From Spirochaetes bacterium ADurb.Bin218 (GTDB lineage: Bacteria; Spirochaetota; UBA4802; UBA5550), in assembly GCA_002069965.1 (NCBI GenBank), contig MWCI01000004.1, forward strand, positions 1 to 64,000: a DNA stretch of 64,000 bases. Direction: 5' to 3'. Within the stretch, counting starts at the first letter, position 1. Each line of letters begins with the position of its first letter. The position numbers and the translations under genes were made by a program. The notes beneath the pieces were generated by a model that did no database searches, had not been told where the DNA came from, and saw only the letters and a program-made list of their open reading frames with translations. Of this stretch, positions 51,421 through 59,420 are shown in pieces.

Positions 51421-52449
51421 ATGACAAAAAGAATTTCTATTCTCATAATTTATACTGGAGGAACAATAGGGATGATACGGGACCATAAAGATGGTTCCTT
51501 GATACCCTATAGCCTTGAAGGAATTTTGTCAGAGGTTCCTGAAATTTTGCGATTTGGATTTAATCTTGATTCCATTACATTTCAAAATCCAATTGATTCT
51601 TCCTCTGTTACCCCTGATATGTGGCAGAGGCTTGCTTCTATAATTTATAAAAACTATGAGAAGTATGATGGTTTTGTCATTCTCCATGGAACTGATACAA
51701 TGGCATATACAGCCTCTGCCTTGAGCTTTATGCTTGATGGACTGTCAAAGCCTGTCATACTTACAGGATCCCAATTGCCGATAAATATGCTTCGCACAGA
51801 TGCAAAGGAAAACCTGATATCCTCAATAGAAATAGCAGCATCTCAAAAGGACGGGAAAGCTCTTGTGCCTGAGGTCTGTATTTATTTTGAATTCAAGCTT
51901 TATAGAGGGAATCGCACAGTCAAGAGAAGTGCAGAGCATTTCAATGCCTTTGAATCTCCCAATTATCCTCCACTGGCTGAATCCGGGATTGAGATTAAGT
52001 ATAACTATAACTATATAAGAAAATGCAATTCCTGTGAGCTTAATATTTTTACAGATATAGAAAATAATGTTGTGGTATTTAAAATTTTTCCTGGCATGAA
52101 CGAAAATGTAGTCAAATCAATATTCACTATACCTGATCTTAAAGGTGTAGTTATGGAGACATACGGCTCTGGAAATGCACCAAATGACGAATGGTTTTTG
52201 AAAATTATAAGTGATGCAATTAGCAGAGGAATTGTTGTTATAAATGTAAGTCAATGTATTTCTGGAACTGTAGATATGGAAAGATACAATACAGGTGCAG
52301 CTTTAGGCAAAGTAGGAGTTATAAGTGGCAGAGATATTACTACAGAAGCAGCTTTAACAAAGCTCATGGTGCTTTTAGGAAAATATAAAGATCCAGCTAA
52401 GGTGGCATCACTATTCCAGAAGGATTTAGCTGGTGAAATTTCTCTCTAA
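51421..52449 (+). CDS. L-asparaginase, type I (AnsA-like)
   Basis: 342 residues without a signal peptide, so cytoplasmic. It hydrolyses L-asparagine to aspartate and ammonia. The nucleophile Thr is T12 in IYTGGTIGM, and the second conserved Thr/Asp pair is T91-D92 in VILHGTDTMAYT. The C-terminal part carries METYGSGNAPNDEWF. The length agrees with the AnsA dimer family. Its position directly behind livF suggests that the importer brings in an amide amino acid that this enzyme deaminates; this is inference from context. Confidence 0.92.
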   Translation: MTKRISILIIYTGGTIGMIRDHKDGSLIPYSLEGILSEVPEILRFGFNLDSITFQNPIDSSSVTPDMWQRLASIIYKNYEKYDGFVILHGTDTMAYTASALSFMLDGLSKPVILTGSQLPINMLRTDAKENLISSIEIAASQKDGKALVPEVCIYFEFKLYRGNRTVKRSAEHFNAFESPNYPPLAESGIEIKYNYNYIRKCNSCELNIFTDIENNVVVFKIFPGMNENVVKSIFTIPDLKGVVMETYGSGNAPNDEWFLKIISDAISRGIVVINVSQCISGTVDMERYNTGAALGKVGVISGRDITTEAALTKLMVLLGKYKDPAKVASLFQKDLAGEISL

Positions 52450-52450
52450 A

Positions 52451-53344
52451 CTAAAAATTTATACCAAGCTCTTCGATGATGTTATCAATATCAATATTAT
52501 AATTTTTAAGTATGTGCTTTTTAAATTGACTTAAAGTCCCAAGATTAGAAGCTGCAAAGCAGGAATTTTTTATGAGCCTTTTTAGATCGTGAATACTCAG
52601 TATGTCCTGATATTCTTTGAATAATTTCACGCTATAATCAAAGGCGGATAGAACCTTTTTGTAATTTTTCATGAAAATAAATATATCCGATAATTCAGTG
52701 CATCCCTCTATGAGTGTTTTTACGTTTACTGCTTCTGGCTCTATTGTGTCTCTATGGGGTGGAATTTTTATCATCTTGAGATAATATGAAATTGCTGTCT
52801 TTGTATCCTGAAGATAGTGTTGATGGAGATATGCTAATCTAAAGATTGCCAGTATATAGTTTTCATTTAGCTTCAGGGCATTTTTATAAGCATCTATTAC
52901 AAAGAGAGGATTTTTCCTCACAGGAAAATTTGCAGCAAGCATAAACCATGCTTTGGCAGATTTTGGGTAGTTTTGGGCAAGCTCTTCTGCTTTACTCCAT
53001 GCTTTTTTTTCTGCCTCACCGGGAGTAGTTATTCTATCTACTAATTTTTTGCGCAGCTTAAGAGCCTTCTTTTTGTATTTTTTTATCTGGGAGTGATTGA
53101 TTAACTCATTATAGTGAACTAAGGCTGCTTCCTCATATTCGGCCTCTGATGTAAGAAAGCATAGTTTATCATAATTTCGTGCAAGGAGAAGTGTTACCTC
53201 ATCATTGCCAAATCCATGATGAATAAGCTTCTGAAGTATAGAGATAGATTCATGGAGACGGTTTTTTCTGTAAAGTTTTTTTGCCTCAGAGAGCAGTTTT
53301 CGGTGGTCTATAACTTTTATGTTATGTTTTTTTATCAGATTCAT
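52451..53344 (-). CDS. Cytoplasmic TPR-like protein of unknown function
   Basis: 297 residues without signal peptide. Tetratricopeptide-like helix pairs: AKKLYRKNRLHESISILQKL, PKSAKAWFMLAANFPVRKNP and LNENYILAIFRLAYLHQHYL, giving about five repeats spread over the protein. Very basic. No Shine-Dalgarno sequence precedes the ATG. A promoter-like pair lies only 5 bases upstream, so the mRNA may be leaderless. Partner unknown. It converges on the asparaginase gene with 1 base between the stops. Confidence 0.75.
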   Translation of the reverse strand: MNLIKKHNIKVIDHRKLLSEAKKLYRKNRLHESISILQKLIHHGFGNDEVTLLLARNYDKLCFLTSEAEYEEAALVHYNELINHSQIKKYKKKALKLRKKLVDRITTPGEAEKKAWSKAEELAQNYPKSAKAWFMLAANFPVRKNPLFVIDAYKNALKLNENYILAIFRLAYLHQHYLQDTKTAISYYLKMIKIPPHRDTIEPEAVNVKTLIEGCTELSDIFIFMKNYKKVLSAFDYSVKLFKEYQDILSIHDLKRLIKNSCFAASNLGTLSQFKKHILKNYNIDIDNIIEELGINF

Positions 53345-53349
53345 GCCTG

Positions 53350-53378
53350 ATTAAACTAATAAGAAACTAAGAAGTCAA
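53350..53378 (-). promoter_or_regulatory. Possible promoter of the TPR gene
   Basis: On the minus strand TTGACT (53378-53373), a 17-base spacer and TTTAAT (53355-53350). Transcription would start at or within a base or two of the ATG at 53344, implying a leaderless transcript. Confidence 0.4.
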
Positions 53379-53427
53379 CTTATTAATTTAATCGGCAAAA
53401 AACTCTTTCCACCAAAGCACTTTGATT

Positions 53428-53754
53428 TTATGAGCAAGAAAAAATAGAGGTTACACCTTTTAGCTTAAGTTCTCCAAAAAAAAGAAATTTAGAAAATTCA
53501 ATCTCTATGGGAGAATTTTGTTTGTGGACAATATCCTCATGAATCCATATTGTTATTCCATCTTTTTCATATTTTTTGTAAAGATATTGAACAGAACTGG
53601 CTGGTTTTCCCGTGCTAACTGCAGGGACCCGGCTTGATATTTGCCGGGTTGGAGCTCAGCCTCCACAGGCATGGTAGCTTTCAAATGTAATTTTTATTTC
53701 TTTGCCTTTTTTAGTTATATAATTTTTAGCTTCATTGGATATGATTATTTCCAT
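53428..53754 (-). CDS. Small HesB-like / CC-Se-motif selenoprotein (Sec33 at TGA)
   Basis: 108 residues if the single in-frame TGA at 53658-53656 is read as selenocysteine. The start ATG at 53754 has AAGGAT 8 bases upstream, and the frame closes with TAA at 53430-53428. Residue order around the site is YHACGGUAPT, so Cys30 and Sec33 form a C-x-x-U redox or metal motif. Beyond it lie TGKPASSVQYLYKKYEKDG, then ITIWIHEDI, and the C-terminal IEIEFSKFLFFGELKLKGV, which from memory is typical of the small Fe-S-scaffold-like 'CC/Se motif' and HesB-like seleno families. A GC-rich hairpin starts 6 bases after the TGA, as a bacterial SECIS must. Standard callers would miss or truncate it. Confidence 0.82.
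53627..53649 (-). promoter_or_regulatory. Bacterial SECIS element
   Basis: On the minus strand, a perfect 7-bp stem ACCCGGC / GCCGGGT with a 9-base loop AAATATCAA begins 6 bases after the TGA. Bacterial SECIS hairpins lie immediately 3' of the Sec codon inside the coding region, where SelB binds. This is an island of GC pairs in an AT-rich gene, which argues for selection on the RNA. The loop lacks the GGUC of the E. coli form, but loops vary between phyla. Confidence 0.75.
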
Positions 53755-53920
53755 ATATTTTATCCTTATATAATTTAATTAATTTGTAAATCACGGTATA
53801 ATTTTGTTAATCAAAAAATATAAATATTTGCAAAAAAATGCATTGTTATAAAATATCTAAATAAATTTTTATAATAAAAAAAAGTTGCTATCTTTGCCAT
53901 GATAAATATTGTGATGTAAA

Positions 53921-54071: not shown

Positions 54072-55994
54072 ATGGCAAAGATATACCCTCAAGATATTGT
54101 AACTCAGGGAAAAATTCCTCAGGAACTAAAATTTATAGTTTCAGATCTCATGAAACTTGATGATTCTTTTCATATTTTTCATTATTCTTTCTGGGGTGGG
54201 AAAGAAGATGGGGATTGTGATTTTATAATATTTTGTCAGTCCCGCGGTTTCATTACCCTTGAAGTGATTATTGGTAGGGCATTTTTCGATGGGAAAAAAT
54301 GGTTTTGCACTTCAAGAGATTCTAAATTTCGTGATATAAATGATCCTGTTAAACGAGCTCAGGATTCAATGAGAGCTTTAAAGCGGTTTTATGAATTGAA
54401 ATTTAACTCTTCTTTTGCTGGTCTTTATAACTGGTGTGTTGTATTTATGGAACTTCAGCGCACAGAGGAATTTAAGCTGCTTGATATTCATGAGTCCCAT
54501 GTCTTTGAGCCACATAAGGGGAGTATTGCTCAATGGGTGGATAGCCTTTTTGTTCTTACAGAAGATGCTTATGGACAAAAAATTTTGTCTTCAAGTGAAA
54601 ATCAAAATTTTCTTTCACTTTTTTCCATTGACCTGCGTATACCCTTTGCCTATCACAGACTAAAGCTGGAAAGACAAAGAAAATTAGTTACAACAGATTT
54701 GCTCCAGGAAAATCTGTTGGATCTTTTTGAGGATAAAGAACGAATTGCCTTTAAGGGTTCAGCAGGCACAGGCAAGACCTGGCTTGGAATGAAAAAGGCT
54801 GCTCGACTTGCTACTCAAGGTAAAAAAGTATTATTTATATGTAACAGTAGGGCTCTTTGTCAATTTGTAGCTCAAAAGCTCGAATTTTATCCTCAAATTG
54901 ACGTGATGACTTTTTATTCCTTTGCAAACACACTTGTAAGGGACTATCTATCATGGCTTTTGAGGGATGAAATATACAAGGATTATTTTTTTGAATGTCT
55001 GTCACAGCTACTTCTGGCAGGAGGCGAAAGTGCTTATTTTATTACTCAGAAAAAAACAAGGGCAGTGAAAAATTTAGATCTGCATATCAATGCTGCTCTT
55101 TTCTCTTTGAGTAATCTTAAGGCTGGGTATGATTATGATTCAGTGATAGAAAAATATGAGAAAATCCTCCCACTTGAGATAATCGACATTTTATATCTCT
55201 TTGTTCCCGATGGTTCTGCTGAAGATGATTTTTTTGATTATAGATTAGTTTTGGCTCTTTCACTTGTTATAGAAAGCGGGCACATTTCTCTTAAAAAACA
55301 TGAATATGATGCTGTTATAATAGACGAGGGAGAAGATTTTAGAATAAGCTGGTGCGATATATTGCAGAATCTCTTTATAAAATATAAAAATAAAGCAGTA
55401 TATGTTTTTTATGATGAGAATGAGACAATATATAGAAAGGAGAAGGAATTGCCCATTAAGCGTTTGATTTATAAATCTGATCATAATAATTATATATTCA
55501 ATTTAGATAAAAATATAAGATGCTGTGATGAGATCCATAAATTTGGTCTTGATATGACAGGTCTTGGTTATAATACAAGGTCTCTGAGATTATCTGGCAT
55601 ATCTCCTTTTGAGTTAGATTTTGACAGTAACAATGATTTTTTTATTTTTCTTGAGAGGCTTCTTGAAGAGCTGGTATTTAGCTACAAAATACCTGAAGAT
55701 AATATAGTAATTCTCTCCAATCGCTCCATAAGCAATTCAGTCTTTGCCTTGAAAAAAAATATAGGAAAGTTTTACATAGCTGAATCAGATAACATCCACA
55801 AGCCTTTTGAAGTGTCGATTAATTTTCGAACAATTCGCGAGTTCAAAGGTATGGAATCTGATGTTGTTATAATTGTTTTTCACAAACGCGATGTGGAGTT
55901 TATGAACAAAAATCAGTATCTTTCAGAGGAACTTCTTTATTGTGGAATCACAAGAGCAACCTCACTTCTTTACATGCTTACTGTTACTTCGTAA
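54072..55994 (+). CDS. NERD-domain / UvrD-like helicase protein
   Basis: 640 residues. Residues about 20-120 resemble the NERD nuclease-related domain (DGDCDFIIFCQSRGFITLEVI, followed by an FFDGKKW turn). Residues about 220-640 form a superfamily 1 helicase: Walker A FKGSAGTGKTWLGMKKA, Walker B DAVIIDEGEDFR, and the C-terminal IREFKGMESDVVIIVF and LLYCGITRATSLLYML (UvrD_C_2). The Lys expected in the nuclease E-x-K is replaced by Ile (LEVI), so the nuclease part may be inactive. It probably processes DNA or RNA duplexes in repair or defence. The Shine-Dalgarno sequence is weak (AAAAGTGAT). Confidence 0.85.
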   Translation: MAKIYPQDIVTQGKIPQELKFIVSDLMKLDDSFHIFHYSFWGGKEDGDCDFIIFCQSRGFITLEVIIGRAFFDGKKWFCTSRDSKFRDINDPVKRAQDSMRALKRFYELKFNSSFAGLYNWCVVFMELQRTEEFKLLDIHESHVFEPHKGSIAQWVDSLFVLTEDAYGQKILSSSENQNFLSLFSIDLRIPFAYHRLKLERQRKLVTTDLLQENLLDLFEDKERIAFKGSAGTGKTWLGMKKAARLATQGKKVLFICNSRALCQFVAQKLEFYPQIDVMTFYSFANTLVRDYLSWLLRDEIYKDYFFECLSQLLLAGGESAYFITQKKTRAVKNLDLHINAALFSLSNLKAGYDYDSVIEKYEKILPLEIIDILYLFVPDGSAEDDFFDYRLVLALSLVIESGHISLKKHEYDAVIIDEGEDFRISWCDILQNLFIKYKNKAVYVFYDENETIYRKEKELPIKRLIYKSDHNNYIFNLDKNIRCCDEIHKFGLDMTGLGYNTRSLRLSGISPFELDFDSNNDFFIFLERLLEELVFSYKIPEDNIVILSNRSISNSVFALKKNIGKFYIAESDNIHKPFEVSINFRTIREFKGMESDVVIIVFHKRDVEFMNKNQYLSEELLYCGITRATSLLYMLTVTS

Positions 55995-56449: not shown

Positions 56450-57550
56450 ATGATCGATTTTGATTTAATAAAAGATAATAATCTTACCTTGATAGCGCAA
56501 AAGGTTTTAGAAGATGAACCTGTTAGCAGGGAAGATGGACGCAATATGCTTTTGACCTATGACATTAATGCTCTTGGCATGATTGCAAATCATATACGAG
56601 AAAAATATCATGGAGATATAACTTATTATGGTGTAAATATAAATCTCAATTATACCAATATATGTGAACTCCGTTGCCCACTGTGTGCATTTTCCTGCGA
56701 TAGAGATGATGAGAAGGCATACCTATATACTATAGATGATATAGAAAAAATAGTGAGAGAGGCAGATGAAAACGGCATAGATGAGGTTCATATCGTTGGT
56801 GGCCTTAACAGTGATCTTAAGCTTGATTATTTTGTAAATATGCTTCGTAGAATTAAGGAGATAAACGATGACATATTCATAGTAGCCTTTACTGCTGTTG
56901 AATATGATTATTTTGCAAGGTTAAACGGTCTGTCTCTTGAAGAGGTTTTTGCTATTTTAAAAGATGCAGGCCTTGGAGCAATCCCAGGGGGAGGGGCAGA
57001 AATTTTTGCTGATGACAAGAGAGGTATAATCTCCCCAAAAAAAATTTCAGGTAAGCGCTGGCTTGAGGTTATGGAGATTGCCCATCAATGCGGCATAAAA
57101 AGCAATGCTACTATGTTATATAATCATATAGAGACTATTGATGACATTATAAATCACATGTTTGAGATCCGTCAGCTTCAGGAAAAGACCGGTGGTTTTA
57201 AAACTTTTGTACCACTGAAATTCCATGATGAAAATACAGAGATAAAATCAAAGGTGCAATCAACAGGTTTTAGGGATATAAGAATTTATTCTACAGCAAG
57301 AATTTTTCTTCACAATGTCCCTCATATTAAAGCTTTATGGATGTATGTTGGTGAAAAAATGGCCTCTGCTTTACAGGACTTCGGAGTAGATGATATAGGA
57401 GGAACATACATTAAAGAAAAAGTTGTCCATAGTGCTGGCGCAAAAACCTCTGACTATGGTTCTATCGATTTTTTAGAAAATCTAATAAAATCTGCAGGTA
57501 AAACTCCAGCAAGGTCAACAGCGGATTACAGGAGAGTTAGTAAAGTATGA
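56450..57550 (+). CDS. mqnE: Aminofutalosine synthase MqnE
   Basis: 366 residues. A radical-SAM enzyme that joins the MqnA product to S-adenosylmethionine, giving aminofutalosine. The cluster motif is C72-x3-C76-x2-C79 (NICELRCPLCAF), then VHIVGGLNS, the PGGGAEIF motif and a C-terminal TADYRRV. These traits separate it from MqnC (below). A GGAG site precedes the ATG. The 4-base ATGA overlap with mqnA and the next overlap with mqnC show a tightly coupled operon. The hydrolase and MqnD are not in the window. Confidence 0.93.
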   Translation: MIDFDLIKDNNLTLIAQKVLEDEPVSREDGRNMLLTYDINALGMIANHIREKYHGDITYYGVNINLNYTNICELRCPLCAFSCDRDDEKAYLYTIDDIEKIVREADENGIDEVHIVGGLNSDLKLDYFVNMLRRIKEINDDIFIVAFTAVEYDYFARLNGLSLEEVFAILKDAGLGAIPGGGAEIFADDKRGIISPKKISGKRWLEVMEIAHQCGIKSNATMLYNHIETIDDIINHMFEIRQLQEKTGGFKTFVPLKFHDENTEIKSKVQSTGFRDIRIYSTARIFLHNVPHIKALWMYVGEKMASALQDFGVDDIGGTYIKEKVVHSAGAKTSDYGSIDFLENLIKSAGKTPARSTADYRRVSKV

Positions 57551-58356
57551 ATCTTGGATATATAAATTATCTTAATTGTTTTCCTTTTTATTATGAGATC
57601 TTTGAATCTTCGCCCCCAGAGGGAGTAAATATTATCCCAGCTTATCCCGGAGAGCTTAACAGGATGATGAAAGAGGGTAAGATTACAATGAGCCCTGTAT
57701 CTGCAGCAGCATATTCTTATCTTCAAAAGGATTTTTTAATCCTTCCGCAATTTTGTCTTAGCTCTGTTGGATATGTAAAATCTGTAGTTTTGCAAAGTCA
57801 TGTTCCCATTGAGGAACTTCACGGTAAAACTGTAGGCCTCACAACAGCCTCAGAAACTTCAGTGGCCTTGTTAAAGGTTTTGCTCTCAAAATATTATAAG
57901 GTTAAGCCTGAGTATATTCCTGTTAAACCACAGCCTGATTTTAACTCTGTAGATGCAGCCCTTGTAATAGGAAATGAGGCTATGAAAGAAACTCCCATTC
58001 CAGTTGAATATTCCTATGATCTTGGAGATCTTTGGTTTAGAAAAACAGGATATCCTGTTGTTTTTGCTATTTTTCTTGTGCACAGAGATGAGCTTTCAAA
58101 AAATAGAGATTTGATAAAATCTATATGTCAATCCTTCCAGAGGTCTCTAAAAAATCTTGAAAGCAATAGAGAGGAGCTTGTTAAAAATGCTTCATTGCGA
58201 TATCCTGATATAAAATATGACATAAGCAAGTATTATTCATATCTGCGGTTTGAATTTACAGAGGAGTTGCAGCAGGCGTTGAGTTTTTATTTTACCGAAG
58301 CTTCCACTGCTGGCATAATTGCAGAAGTTAAAAGGTTGGAGTTTGCTGATTTATGA
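57547..58356 (+). CDS. mqnA: Chorismate dehydratase MqnA
   Basis: 269 residues with a periplasmic-binding-protein fold but no signal peptide. It dehydrates chorismate to 3-enolpyruvyl-benzoate, the first step of the futalosine menaquinone pathway. Signature stretches: NLGYINYLNCFPFYYEIF at the start, SPVSAAAYSYL, and FCLSSVGYVKSVVL, with LVIGNEAM and YDLGDLWFRKTGYPVVFAI later. It overlaps mqnE upstream and mqnC downstream by 4 bases each. Confidence 0.93.
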   Translation: MNLGYINYLNCFPFYYEIFESSPPEGVNIIPAYPGELNRMMKEGKITMSPVSAAAYSYLQKDFLILPQFCLSSVGYVKSVVLQSHVPIEELHGKTVGLTTASETSVALLKVLLSKYYKVKPEYIPVKPQPDFNSVDAALVIGNEAMKETPIPVEYSYDLGDLWFRKTGYPVVFAIFLVHRDELSKNRDLIKSICQSFQRSLKNLESNREELVKNASLRYPDIKYDISKYYSYLRFEFTEELQQALSFYFTEASTAGIIAEVKRLEFADL

Positions 58357-59420
58357 AAGGTTTTATTGCTTTAAAAGATAAAATTTTATCTGGTGAAAGA
58401 ATATCTGAAAAGGATGCCCTCATGCTTTTTGAATGGCCCCTTCCAATTCTTGGAGCTCTGGCTAATCATAGAAGACAATTGATTCATCCAGAAGAAACAG
58501 TTGGGTTTATTCTGGATCGCATAGTCAATTTTACAAATATATGTGAGGCAAAATGCAAATTTTGTGCCTTCCATGCCAGAGGAGGAGTAATACCATCCTA
58601 TGAACTCTCCATAGATGAGGTTTTAGATAAAATCGGTGAAATGTCCATTGCAGGTGGCACTCAGGTTATGCTACAGGGAGGGCTTCATCCAGAGTATGAT
58701 ATTGAATTTTATGAAAAACTAATCAGATCCGTGAAAGAAAGATTCCCCAATGTATATCTCCACTCCTTTTCCCCTGCAGAAGTTGTCCACATGTCAAAAA
58801 AAAGCAACATCACCATAGAGGAAGCTGTGAGTCGTTTGAAAGCCGCAGGGCTTGACTCAATTCCTGGAGCCTCGGATTTGCTTGTTGATAGAATCCGAAA
58901 AATTGTGAGCCCTCTCAAGGCAACAAAGGATGAGTGGTGCAGGGTAATAAGGGCTCTGGCTGTTAATTCTATGGGATCTACAGCAACAATGACATACGGA
59001 ATGGATGAAACCTTAGAGGAAAGAATTGACCATTTAAAGGTTATCCGCGATATTCAGGATGAAACAGGAATTTTAAGGGCATTTATACCATGGTCTTTTT
59101 CTCCAGAGAAGACAGCTATGGAAAGAATTACCCCTGCCACAGGGATTGATTATCTCAAAATAGTTGCAATATCAAGGATCTATCTTGATAACATAAAGTA
59201 TATTCATGCAGGCTGGCTTACAGAGGGGGTTGCCATTGCACAAGTTGCATTATCAATGGGGGCCAATGACTTTGGTGGAGTGATTATGGAAGAGCTTGTT
59301 GTAAAGGCAACTGGAATAAAAAATACTACTAATATGGAGGAGATAATTGCTCTCATAAAACAGGCAGGTAAGATACCAGTTCTCCGCGATTCAGTATATA
59401 GAGAATTGCAGAGATTTTAA
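58353..59420 (+). CDS. mqnC: Cyclic dehypoxanthinyl futalosine synthase MqnC
   Basis: 355 residues. The second radical-SAM enzyme of the pathway: it cyclises dehypoxanthinyl futalosine into the spiro intermediate. The cluster motif is C64-x3-C68-x2-C71 (TNICEAKCKFCAFHA), then GGTQVMLQGGLHPEYD, HSFSPAEVVH and IPGASDLLVDR. The C-terminus has WSFSPEKT and ANDFGGVIMEE. The start overlaps mqnA (ATGA). The tRNA-Arg gene lies convergently 5 bases after the stop. Confidence 0.94.
   Translation: MKGFIALKDKILSGERISEKDALMLFEWPLPILGALANHRRQLIHPEETVGFILDRIVNFTNICEAKCKFCAFHARGGVIPSYELSIDEVLDKIGEMSIAGGTQVMLQGGLHPEYDIEFYEKLIRSVKERFPNVYLHSFSPAEVVHMSKKSNITIEEAVSRLKAAGLDSIPGASDLLVDRIRKIVSPLKATKDEWCRVIRALAVNSMGSTATMTYGMDETLEERIDHLKVIRDIQDETGILRAFIPWSFSPEKTAMERITPATGIDYLKIVAISRIYLDNIKYIHAGWLTEGVAIAQVALSMGANDFGGVIMEELVVKATGIKNTTNMEEIIALIKQAGKIPVLRDSVYRELQRF

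Follow-up and report, generated by a model that had tools for sequence, protein, structure and literature searches.

A selenoprotein gene lies on the minus strand at positions 53428..53754 of the window, the whole stretch of 64,000 nucleotides of DNA that was analysed, and it belongs to a family of predicted selenoproteins that has been catalogued before, the CC/Se motif family. It has 108 codons, with selenocysteine (Sec, TGA) at codon 33. The computational results that carry this finding are the family membership of the protein, the Sec machinery of the genome, the conservation of the TGA, and two hairpins 3' of the UGA, H1 and H2, that are kept beyond coding need. Taken as a whole, we consider it likely that the gene encodes a CC/Se-family selenoprotein whose SelB site is most likely H2, that H1 is an inserted hairpin, and that a HesB/IscA-like fold is probable for the protein. 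Ordinary gene finding and annotation miss or shorten a gene of this kind. The gene adds a spirochaete branch and the hint of a HesB/IscA-like fold to a selenoprotein family without known function, and it illustrates that the best SECIS candidate need not be the stem that first catches the eye beside the UGA.

Results and Discussion

The gene and the Sec machinery

The frame extends from the ATG at 53754-53752 to the TAA at 53430-53428, and a single TGA (53658-53656) is the sole interruption of its 108 codons. When both strands were read, the plus strand of 53428-53754 held no comparable frame. The translation is MEIIISNEAKNYITKKGKEIKITFESYHACGGUAPTRQISSRVPAVSTGKPASSVQYLYKKYEKDGITIWIHEDIVHKQNSPIEIEFSKFLFFGELKLKGVTSIFSCS. 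The residues around Sec are A29-C30-G31-G32-U33, and C30-G-G-U33 forms a CxxU motif. A Shine-Dalgarno-like AAGGAT is read directly at 53762..53767 on the minus strand, 5' of the ATG. A previous, sequence-only reading of this DNA had proposed the same frame, broken by the TGA at codon 33 and nowhere else, together with the Shine-Dalgarno sequence and the C-x-x-U (ACGGU), and in all of these it was accurate. The gene that it proposed stands; it did not state that the strand is minus, and it overlooked a second hairpin that abuts the first at its 3' side.

The genome is a draft of 3.03 Mb in 160 contigs and is 96.6% complete. The Sec machinery that the sequence-only reading had expected was found in it: tRNA-Sec, the product of selC (73.8 bits, anticodon TCA), selB (336 bits), located directly downstream of selA (483 bits) in a tandem, and selD (388 bits). 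The selD gene (L050, G000:C1:41905-42831) is itself interrupted by one TGA in frame, within the UxxK motif (GAGUAAKIG) that is known for selD (PMC13188914), which brings the predicted selenoprotein genes of this cell to at least two. A putative SECIS of selD, AUAGG-CCCGGGUGA-CCUAU, starts within about 10 nt of its TGA.

Family membership and conservation of the TGA

When Cys is put in the place of Sec, the single NCBIfam match of the protein is NF041239, 'CC/Se motif family (seleno)protein'; it covers residues 1-100 and scores 55.4 bits, above the curated 40-bit cut-off of this family. The match bears out the 'CC/Se motif' placement proposed from the sequence and, since it spans residues 1-100, the coding character proposed on both sides of the TGA. 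In a six-frame profile search of the whole genome, the NF041239 match contains 1 TGA. A Pfam search with the protein gave no match, HesB included. NF041239 (Moor_selen_rel) has been tabulated among predicted prokaryotic selenoproteins, with CxxU as its motif and Moorella thermoacetica as the organism of the first prediction (PMC13188914, Table 1). The window protein is like this family in its full-length profile match, its CxxU, its Sec encoded by UGA and its small size (about 90-110 residues).

In the phylum, 13 of 393 genomes have NF041239 matches. Each of the 20 credible matches is interrupted by a single TGA and by no other stop codon, and the TGA of the relatives sits within the motif. 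Among the matches in these 393 genomes there was no Cys version of the family; every relative has Sec. A weak match in another genome (G389), with an internal TAA and 21 bits, is under the NF041239 cut-off and was dropped. All 16 aligned members match NF041239. Two relatives share the long form of the window protein described below. One, L045/L048, belongs to the same genus as the window, with an identity of about 60% in the portion available; L045, from a Spirochaetia bacterium, begins at a contig end that falls within the gene. The other, L035/L047, belongs to the same family, with 38% identity; in it the first Cys of CxxU is missing, and U-C is present. Other relatives belong to family f24, which we infer to be treponemes and label so hereafter. 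Selenoproteins in treponemes have been reported by deep-Sep (PMC12013277); together with the Spirochaetia origin of L045, this points to Spirochaetota as the phylum of the sample.

The TGA could be thought of as a true stop or as a sequencing or decay artefact, in a pseudogene or a gene for a 32-residue peptide, and the draft state of the assembly, in 160 contigs, speaks for such a reading. However, the TGA at 53656..53658 is kept in both of these family genomes and in the treponeme relatives, the profile similarity extends past it, the Sec machinery of the genome is complete, and the RNA structure 3' of it is under selection. We therefore regard a stop or an artefact as extremely improbable. 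The sequence-only reading had counted homologues with neither Cys nor Sec at position 33 and no extension past it as evidence against itself; in L035 and L045 the TGA is kept and the frame continues.

The window protein and its two long-form relatives differ from the treponeme members of NF041239 by extra residues between Sec and a P-x-V motif, the Pro and Val of which are invariant in the protein alignment. The MAFFT alignment has 7 extra residues before P-x-V, and 10 residues separate Sec from Pro in the long form, versus 6 in the treponemes. This alignment places the treponeme Sec over Cys30 of the window protein, not over U33, so the Sec columns of the long and short forms may be non-homologous; an alignment of CxxU on CxxU is equally plausible. 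A repeat search of the phylum sample with the long-form alignment gave no further long-form members. The window protein had no match in plasmids (tblastn), and the long-form alignment gave none that could be confirmed in viral contigs. Among the treponemes, one CC/Se paralogue (L038, L039, L040) has an N-terminal lipoprotein-like signal (LILGCIAC), which suggests an exported selenoprotein. A second treponeme paralogue (L034, L041, L043) begins just 3' of a dicarboxylate/amino-acid:cation symporter gene, and in L043 this paralogue is followed by a gene for glycine reductase component C.

Two hairpins downstream of the UGA

The UGA is followed by 6 nt, then by hairpin H1 (53627..53649, minus strand; ACCCGGC-AAAUAUCAA-GCCGGGU) and immediately by hairpin H2 (53609..53626, minus strand; CCCUGC-AGUUA-GCA(C)GGG). 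The 61-nt region folds with z = -3.5, and 1 of 200 shuffles was as stable. The stem of H1 is the one described in the sequence-only reading, with 7 bp and a start 6 nt past the TGA, and that reading had taken it for the SECIS. Published constraints for bacterial SECIS elements are a G in the first two positions of the loop, a spacing of 16-37 nt, a stem of 4-16 bp and an energy of at most -7.5 kcal/mol (PMC13188914). H1 fails two of them: its UGA-to-loop spacing is 13 nt, and its loop in the window has no G at all. H2, with 6 bp and one bulge, the loop AGUUA, a spacing of 35 nt and -8.9 kcal/mol, satisfies them all. The earlier SECIS assignment was thus probably wrong in detail.

The three long-form genomes separate the two hairpins further. 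The stem of H2 is identical in all of them, and its loops, AGUUA, GGUCA and GGUCU, have an invariant GU, whereas the loop of H1 is not conserved (AAAUAUCAA, AGAUAUCAA and AGGUAACUA; AAAU/AGAU/AGGU) and its stem shows one compensatory pair and two breaking pairs. Being invariant in only three long-form sequences, the H2 stem gives no covariation signal. The H2 loop of L035 is GGUCU, which is also the loop in E. coli fdhF.

The treponeme genes have a hairpin, CCGAC-CGUGUAU-GUCGG, 3' of the UGA with a spacing of 23, which is supported by an A-U to G-C exchange. The GU of its loop starts the Val codon of P-T/A-V, and the GU of the H2 loop starts the Val codon of P-A-V (Val46); H2 for this reason corresponds in position to the treponeme SECIS. 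Where the long form has H1, the treponeme relatives lack a hairpin, though they have this one at the codons of H2, and the extra long-form codons between Sec and Pro encode H1. Compared with the treponeme members, the proposed long-form SECIS is 12 nt further from the UGA. Moreover, the published model of the bacterial SECIS is a single stem-loop (PMC13188914), whereas the window adds a stable, maintained hairpin between the UGA and the recognition hairpin.

SelB might instead bind H1, H2 being incidental or auxiliary. H1 comes directly after the UGA, it is more stable than H2 (-12.8 versus -8.9 kcal/mol), it is maintained beyond coding need in the codon shuffles described below, and the second position of its loop is a G in L045 and L035. 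Against these points stand its short spacing and the window loop without G, the variable loop sequence beside the invariant GU of H2, and the treponeme hairpin at the codons of H2, and we consider SelB binding to H1 unlikely. H2 is most likely the SelB recognition hairpin, and H1, judging from its position, is probably an accessory or spacer hairpin and not the SelB site. An Rfam scan of the region returned nothing near any gathering score. A further hairpin (GGAG..CUCC) places the UGA within its loop; L035 and the window show it clearly, L045 only weakly, and for this reason it was not counted.

Evidence for selection on the RNA

Synonymous codons were resampled in 4000 samples per genome, with the codon usage of 11 window genes. 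Shuffles at least as stable as H1 numbered 5, 2 and 20 of 4000 in the window, L045 and L035, respectively; for H2 the numbers were 33, 0 and 88, and H1 and H2 were matched together in 0 of 4000 in each of the three genomes. Because L045 and L035 were resampled with the codon usage of the window as well, their significance may be overstated. Both arginines in the window H1 are encoded by CGG, which makes up 4 of the 159 Arg codons of the 11 window genes. Furthermore, among the residues identical between the window and L045, the codon is also the same for 12 of 16 within positions 34-51 and for 9 of 29 outside. These results, from three related sequences, support selection on the RNA in H1 and H2 beyond the protein.

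Together, H1 and H2 look like a tandem-hairpin variant of the SECIS. In the decoding that we propose, SelB with Sec-tRNA-Sec would decode the UGA at codon 33 and would recognise H2, with the GU of its apical loop 35 nt past the UGA, where the Val46 codon begins. H1 would most likely fold the extra length away, so that H2 stays near the decoding site. As for its origin, an in-frame insertion next to Sec may have displaced the SelB hairpin to the outer limit of the permitted distance and itself become the hairpin that restores the effective spacing, a case of protein and RNA co-evolution; we put this history forward tentatively, at slightly less than even chances. If this tandem-hairpin reading is true, the gene illustrates how insertions can be accommodated by a bacterial SECIS, and the rule for the spacing between the UGA and the SelB loop becomes directly testable.

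Predicted fold and possible role

An AlphaFold2 model made from 16 sequences has a mean pLDDT of 75.6, with the Sec loop (residues 26-40) below 50. The best eight Foldseek matches in the PDB are of the IscA/SufA/HesB type (IscA, SufA, AQ_1857) or putative Fe-S biosynthesis proteins, with TM scores of 0.40-0.51; the best four have probabilities of 0.96-0.99 and E values of 0.008-0.04. The model supports, with moderate confidence, a HesB/IscA-like fold and not membership of that family. The HesB-like character suggested by the sequence-only reading has moderate support as a fold prediction. The predicted topology, with the Sec loop after the second strand, is like that of the HesB/IscA/SufA carriers and of the HesB-like selenoprotein (TIGR01911); Cys35 of IscA lies after the second strand. 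The window protein has about 10% identity in the structural alignments and, in contrast to HesB, IscA and SufA, no C-terminal Cys-Gly-Cys, its C-terminus being ...GVTSIFSCS, which is not conserved in L035. TIGR01911 and the Pfam HesB families gave no sequence match to the protein, and a PDB sequence search with it gave nothing significant.

The Sec loop also resembles a motif of YkgJ (UPF0153) proteins. The profile-profile comparison gives a probability of 93% over 30 columns, and the likeness was first seen as a match with E = 5e-5 in the genome G077. The stretch of 30 residues can be written CGxU/C...ISSxxPxxxxGKPA. On these grounds, the protein might be a YkgJ-type metal-binding protein and not HesB-like, its C-G-G-U...ISSRVPAVSTGKPA corresponding to C-G-A-C-C...SISSxIPGxxxGKPAG. 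However, the match is limited to the 30-residue loop, and the window protein differs from YkgJ in lacking the remaining cysteine cluster and the rest of that protein. Furthermore, there is no Pfam CxxCxxCC match, the model of the whole protein resembles IscA/SufA, and the genome has a separate YkgJ gene of its own. We find a YkgJ-type protein highly doubtful and retain the HesB/IscA-like fold as the probable one. The loop itself may reflect either convergence of a metal-binding loop or common ancestry. The YkgJ-family proteins L049 and L057 and the genome's own copy (L062, G000:C5:24607-24852) have CGxCC-xxxx-SISSxxPGxxxGKPAG in common with the Sec loop.

In the HesB/IscA-like fold, Sec would probably be placed in a flexible loop after the second strand. 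There, the selenolate and Cys30 of C-x-x-U could act in thiol/selenol redox chemistry or in metal or Fe-S handling; like the sequence-only reading, we infer an Fe-S or redox function from these features.

Gene neighbourhood

The gene neighbourhood points to no function. It is conserved only with L045, in the genes for a TPR-repeat protein, an asparaginase and an ABC transporter, and the window and L035 have no neighbour genes in common. The TPR-repeat protein gene (52451..53344, minus strand) is 83 nt downstream of the selenoprotein gene. Gene order is shared between positions 1-2025 of L045 and 51421-53754 of the window, with an additional NUDIX-like gene between the TPR and asparaginase genes in L045. 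Positions 54072-55994 of the window encode a protein of 640 residues, with a P-loop-like GTGKTW and no NCBIfam match, divergently from the selenoprotein gene. At 56450-59420, the genes for two radical-SAM-like proteins flank one for a smaller protein, and these are presumably menaquinone genes of the futalosine pathway (mqn).
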